Assembly: GCF_001422725.1 (NCBI RefSeq)
Contig: NZ_LMMA01000032.1
Coordinates: 1-64,000, forward strand
Direction: 5' to 3'
DNA: 64,000 bases
Source of the DNA: Flavobacterium sp. Leaf82
Lineage (GTDB): Bacteria; Bacteroidota; Bacteroidia; Flavobacteriales; Flavobacteriaceae
In this document: positions 18,494-24,070 of the stretch, in pieces
How positions within the stretch are numbered: position 1 is the first letter of the stretch
Layout of the letters: each line of letters opens with the position of its first letter
The notes under the pieces: model-generated
What the model was told of the DNA's origin: nothing
What the model saw: the letters and a program-made list of their open reading frames with translations, nothing else
Databases searched by the model: none
Made by a program: the position numbers and the translations under genes

Positions 18494-19405
18494 ATGAAAA
18501 AAGTAATTTTAAGCATCTCAGCGATGCTGTTTATGGGAGTCGCAGCCTTTGCGCAGGTTTTACCGGGAACTTACACCCCTAATAACAGTTATGTTAATCA
18601 AACAGGGTCAACTCAGGATGCGTATGTTAACCAGATTGGAACAAGCCAGAAATCAAGCGTGATTCAGAAAAATTTCAAAAATGAAGCAGATGTTTACCAA
18701 GGAGTAAATCCGGGACAAATTACATTACCAATAGTAGGGAATATTTCTCATGACAACTTAGCTATGGTATCTCAGGATGGTAAATTGAATAAAGCTTATG
18801 TTTCTCAAAACAACTGGAGAAACAAAGCATATCAAACTCAGGTAGGTAATGAAAATGAGGCTACTATCTGGCAAGACGAAACTAATATCGCTTATGGATT
18901 AGGTTTTTCTGGTAACTTAATAGGCGAAGATGTAGCAACTCAAACGCAAACCGGTAACCATAATAAAGCAACTGTTGATCAGGGAACTTCAGGAAATCCT
19001 GTTGCAAGTGCTTCTGTTTTTACAGGAATGCTGCCATTAACAACTTCGATTCCGGCAAAACCTCACGGAAGCAATGAAGCTACACAAACCCAAACAGGTA
19101 ATTATAATGAAGCTTACACTAGCCAGGGAGGTTATAACAACAGTTCAAGCCAGGTTCAGAATGCATCAGTACTGGCTTCATCTGCAAACAAAAATGTGTC
19201 AAACCATTATCAATATGGAGATAACAATATTGCTAATGTTACCCAAACAGGGATTAAAAATCTTGAAAATGTATTGCAGGAAGGAACTGGAAACAAATCT
19301 TATGCAACACAAAACTCTACATTCCCATCTAGTTTTGCAGGCAACGCAAGTGTCGTAATTCAACAAGGTACATTGAACTTATCTACTGTAGCACAAAGCA
19401 ATTAA
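18494..19405 (+). CDS. csgA: Curlin-repeat protein, major amyloid subunit (CsgA-like)
   Basis: This 303-residue secreted protein has the signal peptide MKKVILSISAMLFMGVAAFA. The ATG at 18494 is preferred over the earlier frame start because it opens this signal. The mature chain is built of curlin-type units with regularly spaced Gln and Asn: x-V-x-Q-x-G-x2-N-x-A. Examples are NQTGSTQDAYVNQIG, NKATVDQG, NEATQTQTGNYNEAYTSQGG, NNIANVTQTG and NASVVIQQGTLNLSTVAQ. Such units stack into cross-beta amyloid on the cell surface after export through CsgG. It is about twice the size of E. coli CsgA, with irregular spacers between repeats. It is the first gene of the operon, separated from the rest by a terminator-like hairpin. 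Confidence 0.9.
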   Translation: MKKVILSISAMLFMGVAAFAQVLPGTYTPNNSYVNQTGSTQDAYVNQIGTSQKSSVIQKNFKNEADVYQGVNPGQITLPIVGNISHDNLAMVSQDGKLNKAYVSQNNWRNKAYQTQVGNENEATIWQDETNIAYGLGFSGNLIGEDVATQTQTGNHNKATVDQGTSGNPVASASVFTGMLPLTTSIPAKPHGSNEATQTQTGNYNEAYTSQGGYNNSSSQVQNASVLASSANKNVSNHYQYGDNNIANVTQTGIKNLENVLQEGTGNKSYATQNSTFPSSFAGNASVVIQQGTLNLSTVAQSN

Positions 19406-19473: not shown

Positions 19474-19995
19474 ATGAAGGATTTTATTTTAAATATTGTA
19501 TTTGTTTTTCTCTTTTCATCCGTGTTTTATGCACAGGAAAAAGATGATAATTCAGATTTTAAAAATTATAGTTCCTCACTGTTTAATTCAAAACAAGTGG
19601 CTTTGAGTATCGTTTCTTTAATGGATAAAAAAGAACAAAAGGATTTGAATCTTAAAATTCCATCCGGTATTCAGATACAGCAAATAGGAGATTTAAACAA
19701 AGTAACAGCAATTTTAAAATCAAATGAAACTAAAATTGCCGTAGATCAAAAAGGAGATTACAATCAATTGTTTTTAGATAAAAATGCTAAAACAATTACA
19801 CAAAATATTGTTCAGAAAGGCAATAACAACAAAATTTCTGATTTGACATTATATACAAATTATAGTGTAAATATGGAAATGATTCAAAAAGGAGACAATC
19901 AAAATATTCAGAGTATTGGGACCAATTCACTGTCAAAAAATATGAGAATTACACAAACCGGTAATGGAGCTTCGATAATTCTTATCAACAATTAA
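19474..19995 (+). CDS. csgB: Curlin-repeat protein, probable nucleator (CsgB-like)
   Basis: This 173-residue exported protein has a signal peptide ending near SSVFYA. After a charged linker (residues about 20-65) come five curlin-type units: IQIQQIGDLNKVTAIL, IAVDQKGDYNQLFL, NIVQKGNNNKISDL, MEMIQKGDNQNIQSIG and RITQTGNGASIILI. The shorter repeat block and position just after the major subunit fit the surface nucleator CsgB, which seeds polymerisation of CsgA. The role is inferred from order and size, since the two subunit types are hard to separate by sequence alone. The next gene starts 9 bp later. Confidence 0.75.
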   Translation: MKDFILNIVFVFLFSSVFYAQEKDDNSDFKNYSSSLFNSKQVALSIVSLMDKKEQKDLNLKIPSGIQIQQIGDLNKVTAILKSNETKIAVDQKGDYNQLFLDKNAKTITQNIVQKGNNNKISDLTLYTNYSVNMEMIQKGDNQNIQSIGTNSLSKNMRITQTGNGASIILINN

Positions 19996-20004
19996 ATCTG
20001 AACC

Positions 20005-20735
20005 ATGCGTTTTACAAATCGACATATTACTTTGATAGTATTAATTTTTACTGCCACAATATATGGTCAGGTGCCTCAGGATAAAATAAAGGCAAAACTT
20101 GAAATTGAAAAAATTGAAGGCAACGTAAAAATTACTGGTACAGCAGAGAATCTTACAGATGTCATTAGGAGTGCGGGCTACAGAATGTCTGTCATAAAAA
20201 ATAACAATAAAAGTAATAATCAGTCTAATAATGATCAGGTTGGCGTTTTTACCCTACAGCCAAATGAACTACAAAAGTTATCGACTTCTCAAATCAATCT
20301 TTCAGAAGATGATGAGGTAATCGTTTTATTATTGTTTTATGATGAAGACAAACAAATAATAGCAAAAGACCGTGTGGTTTTGGGCGAGGAAAAAAAAAAG
20401 ACAATGTAATAGTGCTTCCTGTTGACGGTTTTATGTTAAGAGGAATTATTACTGATGATACCAAAACCAAAATTGGTAAAGATTTTTATGATCGATATTA
20501 TTACAAATACAATGATATTGGAATAAATGCTGAAAAAATAGTAACAATAGGTGAAGAATATAGTTTCGCAAGAAATACAGCCATAACAATAACCATAGAT
20601 AATGAGGTTATCTATGAGTTTTTAGCCAGACCGGATGACGAATTTCTGGATGCAGTTGCAGAGGAATCTGTAAATGCCACCTTTACTTATTTTAAAGAAA
20701 AAGAAAAGCAGCGAAAATATTTCACTCAGTATTAA
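20005..20735 (+). CDS. csgE: CsgE with CsgC/CsgH-like N-terminal domain, split by a -1 frameshift
   Basis: The gene is read as two frames. Frame 1 (20005-20409) has a signal peptide (TATIYGQ) and a beta domain, residues about 25-130. The pattern LEIEKIEGNVKITGTAEN, GYRMSVIKNN, QVGVFTLQPNE, EVIVLLLFYDE recalls CsgC/CsgH curli chaperones. Frame 2 (from 20400) continues as DNVIVLPVDGFMLRGII, then KIGKDFYDRYYYKYND and FARNTAITITIDNEVIYEFLARPDDE, a clear CsgE domain, the periplasmic cap that gates CsgG. The switch lies at ten A followed by G (20390-20400), containing A_AAA_AAG; zero-frame stops follow at once. A -1 shift gives a 243-residue product. Frame 2 alone has only a GTG start and no signal. 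Mutation or a homopolymer error are alternatives. Confidence 0.8.
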
Positions 20736-20751
20736 TTTTATTATAAGCGAC

Positions 20752-21156
20752 ATGAAATTTATTGTAATCCTGGTAGTATTTCTACTTGTGTCTCCGTTTA
20801 TAAAGGCTCAGGCTTTAGTTTATAAGCCTGTAAATCCAGCTTTTGGAGGAGATACCTTTAATTATCAATGGCTTTTGAGCAGTGCCGAAGCTCAGAATAA
20901 GCAGAAGGATAAAACAACCGAAACAAAACAGCAAACAGATCTGGAACGCTTTAAAGCAAATTTAAATGCGCAATTGTTAAGTCAGATTTCAAGCTCACTC
21001 TACAAACAACAATTTGGTACTGATGGTATTAAAGAAGGTTCTTACACCTTTGGGAGTTATTCTGTCGATGTTTACCCATCTTCTGACGGACTCACACTAA
21101 ATATTCTGGATACCAATACCGGAGAACAAACACAAGTAATCATCCCAAATCAATAA
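20752..21156 (+). CDS. csgF: Curli assembly factor CsgF
   Basis: This 134-residue exported protein has a signal peptide ending at IKAQA (residue 20), immediately followed by LVYKPVNPAFGG, the CsgF N-terminal motif that inserts into the CsgG pore as a constriction. Next come DTFNYQWLLSSAEAQN and a C-terminal region (GSYTFGSYSVDVYPSSDGLTLNILDTNTGEQTQVIIP) matching the family's folded domain that couples CsgB to the surface. The length is close to E. coli CsgF (138). The frame opens earlier at 20674, but the ATG at 20752 gives the signal peptide. It starts 16 bp after csgE and ends 1 bp before csgG, in the same operon. Confidence 0.92.
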   Translation: MKFIVILVVFLLVSPFIKAQALVYKPVNPAFGGDTFNYQWLLSSAEAQNKQKDKTTETKQQTDLERFKANLNAQLLSQISSSLYKQQFGTDGIKEGSYTFGSYSVDVYPSSDGLTLNILDTNTGEQTQVIIPNQ

Positions 21157-21157
21157 T

Positions 21158-22519
21158 ATGAGATTACATCACTACTTACTTATTTTATTTGGATTTCTTT
21201 TTTCGGGTTGCGGTGCTTATTTCAATCAGCCAACCGGAGTACAAAAAGCAGTTTTGGGAGAAGGTACTCCCGCGACTTCCTTATTAAAAGATTTACCAAA
21301 ACCAAAGGAACCCGTTGTGGTTGGAGTCTATAAATTCAGAGACCAGACCGGACAATATAAACCACAGGAAAACGGAAGCAGTTTTAGTACAGCCGTAACT
21401 CAGGGAGCAACTTCTATCTTGATAAAAGCCCTCGAAGATTCTAAATGGTTTGTACCAATTGAGCGCGAAAATATTGGAAATTTACTGCAGGAGCGAAATC
21501 TAATTAGAGCAACACGTCAGGAATATGTAAAAAATGCCAATCCAAACGAACCTCAGTTAACGCCTTTATTATATGCAGGAGTTTTATTAGAAGGCGGAAT
21601 AGTTTCATACGATTCTAATATAATTACGGGAGGTTTTGGCGCAAGGTATTTTGGTGCCGGAGCGTCTGTAAAATACCGTCAGGATCGGGTTACGATTTAT
21701 CTGAGAATGATTTCAACATCAAACGGAAAAATTCTAAAATCAGTTTATATTTCTAAAACTATTTTATCACAGGCAATTGATGAAAGTTTATTCAGGTATG
21801 TAAATTTTAAAAGACTGTTAGAAGTTGAAACCGGATATACCACAAATGAACCGGTGCATATGGCCGTAACCGAAGCAATAGAAAAAGCCGTTGAATCATT
21901 AGTCTTAGAAGGAATAAAAGATAATATCTGGGAAGCAGATGCGCCAAAATCTGAAGTTGATACTTTATTAAAAAAATACGACGAAGAAACAAAAACCGCA
22001 GATGTAACAGCACTTTACGGAAGAGAATTAGAAAACAGAAGAAGCAAGTTTGCCATCGAAATTTCAGGAGGAGCAACGTTAATGGACGGAGATTATCAAG
22101 ATCCGCTTTTAAGACCTTTTGGACGTGGTGCGTTGAAATTTTTTATAACGCCCGGTTTTAATATCAGTGCCTCTACAAATGTTGTAAACCTTGCTAATAA
22201 AAATTTACTCGATGTAGGGTATGTCACTTACGATCTTAATCTCGAATGGGTTCTGTTACCCAAAGATCGGTTTACGCCTTATTTATATGGAGGAGGAGGA
22301 TATGCCACAAACAAAAAATTCGAAAATACATACAGTAAAGTTCAATACGGTTTAGGTCTTGAATATCTTGCTTCTGACAGAATTGGAATAAAATTATTTG
22401 CAGAACAAAATATTAATTTCAGCGACAATGTCGATTATATAAAAGCTGGAACGCGGGATGATTATTATTACAAATTTGGATTAGGGCTTACTTATTATTT
22501 CGCAAAAAAGAAAAAATAG
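21158..22519 (+). CDS. csgG: Curli secretion channel CsgG with C-terminal beta-barrel-like extension
   Basis: This 453-residue outer-membrane lipoprotein has its lipid Cys at residue 18 (FLFSGC), followed by GAYFNQP, the usual CsgG mature start. Residues about 50-270 hold the CsgG domain: VVVGVYKFRDQTGQYK, GATSILIKALEDSKWFVPIERENIGNLLQERNLIR, LLEGGIVSYDSNIITGG, RYFG, and VTIYLRMISTSNGKIL with the channel hairpins. Nine subunits form the pore for curlin export. E. coli CsgG is about 277 residues. Here a further 170 or so (from about 285, RRSKFAIEISGGATLMDGDY to LGLTYYF) show alternating strands like an OmpA-type barrel. This extension is the unusual part. The gene is in the csg operon. Confidence 0.92.
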   Translation: MRLHHYLLILFGFLFSGCGAYFNQPTGVQKAVLGEGTPATSLLKDLPKPKEPVVVGVYKFRDQTGQYKPQENGSSFSTAVTQGATSILIKALEDSKWFVPIERENIGNLLQERNLIRATRQEYVKNANPNEPQLTPLLYAGVLLEGGIVSYDSNIITGGFGARYFGAGASVKYRQDRVTIYLRMISTSNGKILKSVYISKTILSQAIDESLFRYVNFKRLLEVETGYTTNEPVHMAVTEAIEKAVESLVLEGIKDNIWEADAPKSEVDTLLKKYDEETKTADVTALYGRELENRRSKFAIEISGGATLMDGDYQDPLLRPFGRGALKFFITPGFNISASTNVVNLANKNLLDVGYVTYDLNLEWVLLPKDRFTPYLYGGGGYATNKKFENTYSKVQYGLGLEYLASDRIGIKLFAEQNINFSDNVDYIKAGTRDDYYYKFGLGLTYYFAKKKK

Positions 22520-22555: not shown

Positions 22556-24070
22556 ATGAAGTTTAAATTTAAAAACAAATTAATAATGAAGTATTTATAC
22601 AAAATAGCAAGCGTACTTTTTTTATTGTTTTTGGTTTCCTGCAGCGAAGAAAAAATAGGCGAATACGAATTTGGTACCGTTACCGGAAGAGTCGTCAATG
22701 CAGATACTTTTGAACCTATGGAGAACGTTAAAATACTTTCCAGCCCAACTACAAGTACCGTTTTTACAGATGCCGAAGGTAAATTTACCGTTTCGAACGT
22801 CAAATCAGGTGAATATTCTTTTCAGGCTCAGAAAGATGGTTTCGTAGCAAAATTTGAAGCCGTTACACTAACCGGAAATAACACCTCTGAAGTTGTTTTT
22901 GAGCTCAAAAAAGCCACAGCCAATAATAAACCCCCAACAGTTCCGGTATTAGTAAGTCCGATAGATAATAGTACAGCTCAGGCAATATCTCTGGACTTAA
23001 CCTGGACAGATACAGATCCGGATAAAGATGAATTGATTTTTAAAATCACGCTCAGAAATAGTAATAATAGCGAAGTAAAAGTTTATGAACCCATAAAAGA
23101 AAATAAACTAACATTGACAGACTTAATATATGGTACAAAATATTATTGGCAGGTTGAAGTAACAGATGGTGTAAATACACCTGTTTTAAGCACAGTAAGT
23201 ACATTTACAACACTTGCTTTTCCTGCCACAAGATATTTATTTGTAAAAAACATAAATGATAACAATGTGATTTTTACTGCCGATGATACCGGAAAACAAT
23301 ATCAATTGACCAGTTCAGATAAAAATTACTGGCGTCCGCGAAGAAATAATCAGGCTAAGAAAATTGCTTTTATAGGAACAAATGGTTCTCAAAATGATCT
23401 TTATACCATGAATTTTGACGGAACAGGTATTAAAAAAGTCACAAGTTCAGTACCAATTGCCGGTTTTAATTCAGATTATATTGGGTATTCCTGGAATGCT
23501 TCAGGGAGTGAGCTTATTTATCCTAATTTTGATAAATTGTACAAAATCAACAGCGACGGAAGTGGTTTAACCAAAATATTTCAAACCCCAAACGGCAAAT
23601 TCATATCAGAATGTGATTGGAGTGCCGATGGATCTAAAATTGCTTTAAAAGTAAACGATTCAAATGGTTATAATGTCGAGATGTATGTTATTGATCCTTC
23701 CGGAGTAGTAACAGCTACTATTCTTTCTGGTTTAAACGGAGCAGTTGGCGGATTAAACTTTTCTATCACAGGGCAAAAAATAGTGTATACCAGAGATGTT
23801 ACAGGATATGAAAGTTCAAATTACCGGCAGTTAGATTCCAGAATTTTCGAGTATAATTTTGCAACCGGAACTTCTTTACAAATAATAACCGATAAAATTT
23901 CAGGAACAAACGATTTGGATGTCCGGTATTCACCAAACGAATCAGAACTGATTTTTATCAATACTTCAAATGATGGTATTTCGATAAAAAATACAGTAAA
24001 AGCAACTACAGGCGTTGTGAACTCAAGAAGCGTATTATTTTCAGGAACCTTAATGCCAGATTGGGAATAA
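22556..24070 (+). CDS. Curli-operon lipoprotein with CarboxypepD_reg, FN3-like and PD40/TolB-like propeller domains
   Basis: This protein of about 504 residues is anchored by a lipoprotein signal (LFLVSC). Starts at 22556 or at 22586 are both possible, and the second gives a more usual signal length. Residues about 38-115 are a carboxypeptidase regulatory-like fold (GTVTGRVVNADTFEPMENVKI ... YSFQAQKDGFVA). About 125-220 is FN3-like (VPVLVSPIDNS ... YGTKYYWQVEVTDG). About 225-504 contains PD40-type blades (KIAFIGTNGSQNDLYTMNFDGTGIKKVT, WSADGSKIALKV, YSPNESELIFI). It starts 36 bp after csgG and ends at a terminator, so it is the last operon gene. It is not a canonical Csg protein. A role binding or presenting the fibre is a guess. 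Confidence 0.8.
   Translation: MKFKFKNKLIMKYLYKIASVLFLLFLVSCSEEKIGEYEFGTVTGRVVNADTFEPMENVKILSSPTTSTVFTDAEGKFTVSNVKSGEYSFQAQKDGFVAKFEAVTLTGNNTSEVVFELKKATANNKPPTVPVLVSPIDNSTAQAISLDLTWTDTDPDKDELIFKITLRNSNNSEVKVYEPIKENKLTLTDLIYGTKYYWQVEVTDGVNTPVLSTVSTFTTLAFPATRYLFVKNINDNNVIFTADDTGKQYQLTSSDKNYWRPRRNNQAKKIAFIGTNGSQNDLYTMNFDGTGIKKVTSSVPIAGFNSDYIGYSWNASGSELIYPNFDKLYKINSDGSGLTKIFQTPNGKFISECDWSADGSKIALKVNDSNGYNVEMYVIDPSGVVTATILSGLNGAVGGLNFSITGQKIVYTRDVTGYESSNYRQLDSRIFEYNFATGTSLQIITDKISGTNDLDVRYSPNESELIFINTSNDGISIKNTVKATTGVVNSRSVLFSGTLMPDWE

Follow-up and report, generated by a model that had tools for sequence, protein, structure and literature searches.

The window, a stretch of 64,000 nucleotides from the draft genome of Flavobacterium sp. 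Leaf82 (5.67 Mb in 37 contigs), carries on its forward strand a curli gene cluster that runs, in order, through a curlin-repeat protein, a probable second curlin-like protein, a split csgE, CsgF and CsgG. The first of these, a CsgA-like subunit upstream of csgE (18494..19405), matches the curlin profile PF07012 over 18494-19402 (E 1.7e-16); the open reading frame behind it (19474..19995) gave no Pfam curlin match above the cut-off, and is labeled a probable second curlin-like subunit by eye, from its repeats and its position. Directly downstream of csgE lie CsgF (20752..21156; PF10614, 138 bits) and the CsgG secretion pore (21158..22519; PF03783, 222.6 bits), the latter with a C-terminal beta-barrel-like extension that remains sub-threshold (PF13505, 19.7 bits against a cut-off of 28.7). 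The gene after csgG (22556-24070) encodes a carboxypeptidase-regulatory-like domain (PF13620, over the cut-off) with a weak fn3-like match in addition, and may be part of the curli cluster.

The csgE gene itself is divided between two overlapping reading frames that meet at GAAAAAAAAAAG (20389..20400), where, by direct reading, ten A's occupy 20390-20399 and a G stands at 20400. The zero frame (20005..20409, 134 codons) crosses this putative slippage site as GAA (from 20389) AAA AAA AAG and continues with ACA ATG TAA, its stop (20407-20409) thus lying two sense codons past AAG and its product ending in GEE-KKK-TM. The CsgE-coding frame (20346..20735, stop at 20733-20735) is offset by -1, reads DNVIVLP past the junction and contains a PF10627 match at 20436-20720. 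The first-pass annotation had given the junction coordinates, the count of ten A's and a heptamer, A_AAA_AAG, embedded in phase, and had described a -1 slip leading into DNVIVLP and CsgE; re-reading the window found all of this correct, the CsgE frame staying open between 20346 and its stop.

Domains on either side of the junction

The zero-frame stop had also been placed at the boundary between a CsgC/CsgH-like domain and CsgE, a placement borne out by the fold predicted before the stop and by the family match after it. The short product has a signal-like N-terminus and is predicted to form an N-terminal helix followed by a seven-stranded beta sandwich (pLDDT 87.6), which VIA-align superposes best on E. 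coli CsgC (Z 12.0, rmsd 2.3, 94 of 95 residues aligned), with unrelated sandwiches a small margin below (Z 11.3) and CsgH at Z 10.5. Foldseek gives CsgH as the best match (E 8.4e-6), and a profile search against the PDB gives CsgC (E 3.3e-4). At the level of family profiles, NCBIfam CsgH scores 31.8 bits on the window's domain against a cut-off of 35, and 38.3 and 38.0 bits on those of two in-frame relatives, L128 and L031; NCBIfam CsgC scores 18.0 bits on the window against a cut-off of 75, and the Pfam search of the window returned no match to this domain. The cysteines by which CsgC and CsgH are told apart, in the portion of PMC4838910 that was available, are a CxC motif or two distant cysteines, respectively; both arrangements are absent, the domain having no cysteine in 125 of 132 genes and one in the other seven. 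The predicted structure is that of the CsgC/CsgH fold, and, because the distinguishing cysteines are missing, the domain is named CsgC/CsgH-like and assigned to neither family; its role as an amyloid inhibitor is inferred.

As far as the same portion of PMC4838910 extends, CsgH-like sequences had already been placed in Bacteroidetes, and the domain resembles the CsgC and CsgH inhibitors in its seven-stranded sandwich, in having them as its closest solved structures and in lying in a curli gene cluster, but differs from them in preceding and being fused to CsgE and in lacking the diagnostic cysteines. Bacteroidetes are stated to lack csgC in the part of PMC3521004 at hand, whereas a CsgC/CsgH-like domain here sits within the csgE gene.

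On the other side of the stop, PF10627 (CsgE) reaches 56.6 bits (cut-off 25), and the profile of the fusion finds bacterial CsgE as its best PDB match (E. coli, 2na4; E 1e-9), the E. coli-type NCBIfam CsgE equivalog not being reached (33.5 bits, cut-off 137). Weak gp120 matches in the profile searches were dismissed as chance. The window's CsgE is thus like that of E. coli in exceeding the family cut-off and unlike it in its setting, E. coli CsgE being a separate protein and the window's the C-terminal half of a fusion that slippage would have to reach. The model of L128, a natural in-frame fusion, shows no structure at residues 130-144, the stretch that surrounds the run (pLDDT below 50), and the slippage would therefore fall in a flexible linker.

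The two frames differ further in their beginnings. Each of the 50 distinct split genes described below has a hydrophobic start in the upstream ORF (best 10-residue hydropathy at least 1.84), whereas the CsgE-frame start has no signal-like stretch in any of the 47 tested (hydropathy at most 1.57; the other three had no start in the scanned part), and the CsgE frame of the window likewise lacks a signal sequence of its own as judged by hydropathy. Because signal-like sequence is confined to the upstream frame, CsgE probably enters the periplasm only as part of a slipped fusion, an inference drawn from hydropathy without a signal-peptide predictor.

Conservation and history of the split

The CsgE part was matched in 72 of 299 genus genomes, and in 92 of 398 when the draw was enlarged with the first genomes included; its open frame measures 112-129 aa (split) in 40 of these 92 genomes and 241-278 aa (not split) in the remaining 52. 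Extra sampling near G392 (198 genomes) yielded no genus csgE hit beyond this draw. A second csgE copy is ruled out by the single match at E 0.001 in each genome with a hit. In the locus set L001-L161, both domains were matched in 157 of 161 loci (L118-L121 were left out), and the distinct csgE genes with both domains number 136, of which 50 are split and 86 in frame.

The first-pass annotation had proposed comparing csgE in related flavobacteria for a kept run and phase, and the comparison supports it: 49 of the 50 distinct split genes have [G/C]-A10-G, phased as nAA AAA AAA AAG, with CsgE following in the -1 frame. The odd gene out, L139, is closely related to L032; its run is A12 and calls for a +1 or -2 shift. 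This A12 is seen in one genome and could be a miscount. The csgE of F. johnsoniae strain CI04 (L086) is among the split ones. Among the A10 split genes, pairwise protein identity falls to 38% while the A10G bases stay constant, forming the sole long invariant DNA stretch (11 bases, against 3 for the runner-up), and the codon preceding the run is GAA in 45 and CAA in four, never GAG or CAG. All ten other conserved lysine columns mix AAA and AAG, whereas the three lysines of the junction are always AAA AAA AAG. Distances flanking the run differ among genes by whole codons, the run itself remaining at ten. On average, 1.94 codons separate the run from the zero-frame stop, where stop frequency farther downstream predicts 9.7, and this stop is TAA in 38, TAG in 10 and TGA in one of the 49 genes. 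Furthermore, all 56 A-runs of at least ten in the 136 csgE genes (99,504 bases) sit in the linker. These genes are related by descent, so that the counts are not independent events and no p-value is given. Runs of nine A's occur fourteen times in the csgE N-terminal domain, at a few recurring places in 13 loci (L029, L030, L036, L053, L059, L063, L105, L108, L109, L112, L113, L116 and L145).

Median pairwise dN/dS is 0.077 in the N-terminal domain (145 pairs) and 0.060 in CsgE (327 pairs), and, by this codon-level measure, purifying selection is acting on both. As the -1 change at A10G is conserved and selection is purifying on both sides of it, a miscounted or decayed gene is argued against, and we are highly confident that the change of frame is genuine and has a function.

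Across the family, 86 of 397 genomes have a CsgE hit, and long open frames predominate outside the genus. Besides the window's genome, only G628 (152-aa open frame at a contig end) and G638 (internal TAA) have short or interrupted frames; both candidates are in frame (loci L143 and L144), and no split csgE was found outside the genus in this survey, in which only 20 family and genus loci were read base by base, the remainder resting on open-frame lengths.

A quick phylogeny, built from 113 of the 136 genes (with thinned outgroups, and without start-less genes or the linker), contains a strongly supported group of 54 that takes in 49 of the 50 split genes, namely 48 A10 splits and the A12 gene, together with three in-frame A10 genes (L031, L128 and L038), one in-frame A11 gene (L030) and L033, which is in frame without a run and lies nested among the split genes, on a long branch and with unsure placement. 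As an in-frame gene without a run inside the split group, L033 indicates that slippage is dispensable there. Uninterrupted relatives without the run had been named in advance as grounds for refutation, and this condition is partly fulfilled: many such genes exist, but in the tree all except L033 fall outside the main split group.

The remaining A10 split, L065, is placed elsewhere, beside the in-frame L060, to which its N-terminal domain is 65% identical (38% to the window), and a constraint that joins it to the 54 is rejected (AU p 0.00016, with lnL lower by 93, for a group chosen after tree inspection). Because L065 groups with L060 apart from the 54, the A10G split of csgE is, on this phylogeny, of at least two origins, barring a miscount of the L065 run. 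Two further in-frame A10 genes, L055 and L057, also lie outside the group of 54. In all five in-frame A10 genes a -1-frame stop stands 0-4 codons past the run (within one codon in four of them), so that an extra A in any of them would end the protein after 0-4 codons. At control linker positions (in-frame genes, no run; n=1758), a -1 stop occurs within one codon in 24% and within four in 47%, against which the nearby stops of the five genes are only suggestive. Other run lengths seen in relatives are A11 (L030), A12 (L139) and A9 (L059 and L063).

The same motif recurs once in the window's genome. Counting both strands, this genome has 65 exact A10 runs; of the 64 besides the one in csgE, 22 were read, including all 13 that a G follows. 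GA10G is found twice, in csgE and at the junction of dnaX (L210:1046-1057, or G000:C23:17145-17156), a gene named from its sequence without a family search, where the identical 12-mer stands in the same phase and the tau part is likewise offset by -1. The C-terminal part of dnaX was matched in 118 of 121 genus genomes, its open frame being under 300 aa in 112 (two of them short fragments and two with an internal stop), and GA10G at -1 was present at all 30 dnaX junctions read in the genus. Six genus genomes (G086, G035, G071, G065, G064 and G084) have a long dnaX open frame of 566-614 aa, and the split has therefore been lost, or never arose, in those six. Two-ORF dnaX genes with ten A's have been described, with transcriptional realignment suggested as their mechanism (Antonov et al. 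2013, PMC3711429, available in part). Among the 22 runs read, four (L212, L217, L225 and L230) sit well inside long ORFs whose frame is kept, and A10 alone is therefore insufficient to make a dual-product gene. By eye, these four ORFs appear glycosyltransferase-like, TonB-receptor-like, SRPBCC-like and pectinase-like, respectively, and slippage at their runs is possible.

The agent of the frame change

Ribosomal and polymerase slippage had both been put forward for this junction; the evidence leans toward the polymerase and does not exclude the ribosome. The alternative that survives best is a pure -1 ribosomal frameshift at A_AAA_AAG, of the E. coli dnaX type, which would make the fusion from a uniform A10 mRNA and which we consider unlikely without discarding it. 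The heptamer is in phase with the invariant AAG in all 49 A10 split genes, 49 of 50 split genes call for a shift in the -1 direction, and the 54 Rfam tRNA hits of the 37-contig draft include three tRNA-Lys UUU and no CUU (ARAGORN called no gene at one of the 54), the reading of AAG by tRNA-Lys UUU alone being the reason why this heptamer is slippery. In addition, folding of the 60 nt downstream is slightly more favorable than that of base-shuffled sequences (mean z -1.35, with 12 of 49 below -2; at four control offsets, -0.41 to +0.77). However, RNAalifold found no conserved downstream helix in 38 of the 50 split genes (3 pairs, -0.37 kcal/mol), and an upstream SD-like stimulator (GGAG, GAGG or AGGA within the 15 nt up to the run) is present in only seven of 49; Bacteroidia ribosomes are reported not to recognize SD sequences (PMC9976891, in the part available). 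Moreover, the heptamer needs six A's and ten are invariant, leaving four surplus; A7 would preserve both phase and heptamer and is never seen in the split genes; and the A12 gene L139 needs a +1 or -2 shift, beyond a single -1 ribosomal slip.

It is the run length, the weakness of the stimulators and the A12 gene that favor RNA polymerase, which we regard as the likely main agent of slippage at csgE; set directly against the ribosome it is clearly the better candidate, and perhaps both act together. A run of at least nine A's is kept at the junction among orthologues (A10 in 49 and A12 in one of the 50 split genes), and as to shifts in both directions, a criterion for transcriptional realignment in the accessible part of PMC3711429, 49 genes are at -1 and a single one, the possibly miscounted L139, at +1/-2. 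In published work, slippage on A9 in T. thermophilus dnaX makes half of the product short (PMC1088944), and magnesium chelatase sites in E. coli reporters give 40% with nine A's and 63% with eleven (PMC3711429), each according to the portion of the source that was available.

Separate synthesis of CsgE, through an internal or coupled start past the short ORF and without any fusion, is compatible with the overlap of the frames and with existing CsgE-frame starts such as the GTG at 20412, yet it is improbable in the extreme, as its product, lacking a signal-like start in all 47 genes tested, would stay cytoplasmic, while the in-frame relatives are fusions and the invariance of A10 would be left unexplained. 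Still less can be said for DNA-level phase variation, in which replication slippage alters the A count and turns CsgE on or off: poly-A tracts are prone to it, and relatives do differ in frame and run length (A11, A12 and two A9 genes, as above), but a random snapshot should mix lengths, whereas exactly A10 is present in 49 of 50 split genes. A homopolymer miscount or a decaying pseudogene is the least credible reading, for although homopolymers are error-prone and the single cases L065 (A10) and L139 (A12) could be miscounts, the same A10 occurs in 49 distinct genes with differing kinds of stop close behind it (the 38 TAA, 10 TAG and one TGA), with dN/dS of about 0.06-0.08 and with the split form on one side of a strongly supported tree group. 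The conservation, the dN/dS values and the constancy of the run length were the grounds for rejecting sequencing error, pseudogene and phase variation.

A proposed pair of chaperone products from one gene

Taken in the absence of RNA or protein data, the likely explanation is that csgE is a dual-product gene read through polymerase slippage on A10. RNA polymerase would slip on the run and produce csgE transcripts of mixed A-run length, in which the unslipped message would encode a secreted CsgC/CsgH-like chaperone ending just past Lys-Lys-Lys, and a message with one A more (or two fewer) would encode the chaperone domain fused through a flexible, lysine-rich linker to CsgE, which partners the CsgG pore. 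At the embedded A_AAA_AAG, the ribosome may contribute to the change of frame. Since only the upstream frame is signal-like, slippage would be required for any exported CsgE, and, as the unslipped message would yield free chaperone, it would determine how much chaperone is free and how much is tethered to the pore. The gene's architecture, its conservation, the purifying selection, the repeated origin and the domain folds are what the analysis shows; the accumulation of both products, the importance of their ratio and the leading part of the polymerase are inferences; the regulated production suggested in the first-pass annotation has no support. A broader proposal, which we hold to be an even bet, is that G-A10-G is a calibrated fixed-ratio device of the Flavobacterium polymerase, in use in dnaX throughout the genus and recruited separately at least twice at the csgE linker, with selection acting on the pair of products and not on one particular frame. 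In the in-frame A10 genes, the nearby -1 stop would then still give the short CsgC/CsgH-like form, the slipped and unslipped messages having exchanged roles.

Programmed slippage is known from dnaX, mxiE, spa13 and IS elements. To the extent that the cited sources were available, csgE shares with two-ORF dnaX its run length, its -1 offset and a longer product on slippage, and differs in gene and pathway, in its parts (a secreted CsgC/CsgH-like domain and CsgE) and in that some orthologues are in frame with A10 retained (PMC3711429). Slippage in Shigella mxiE and spa13 is alike in that the longer product of a secretion-system gene needs it, but concerns type III secretion, with a U-run in mxiE, whereas csgE belongs to curli (type VIII) secretion and has an A-run (PMC5009743, PMC1088944). 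In T. thermophilus dnaX, the polymerase likewise slips on an A-run to give two products per gene; there the slip leads to the short form, which is the polarity of the in-frame A10 csgE genes and the opposite of that in the window, where it would lead to the long form (PMC1088944). No report of frameshifting or slippage in csgE was found in the literature searched, which excluded supplementary files, where an entry is possible: 'curli' and 'csge' are absent from the main texts of PMC3711429 and PMC4066793, 'curli' from the searched part of PMC5009743, and 'frameshift' from PMC3521004, on curli diversity.

The identity of the 12-mer in dnaX and csgE means that slippage at the two genes could be measured in a single reanalysis of Flavobacterium RNA-seq. 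If the proposal is true, a gene of curli (type VIII) secretion would join the cellular genes that need slippage, and a single gene would supply a free and a pore-tethered amyloid chaperone at a set ratio; csgE, which in many Flavobacterium genomes looks broken, is probably intact.
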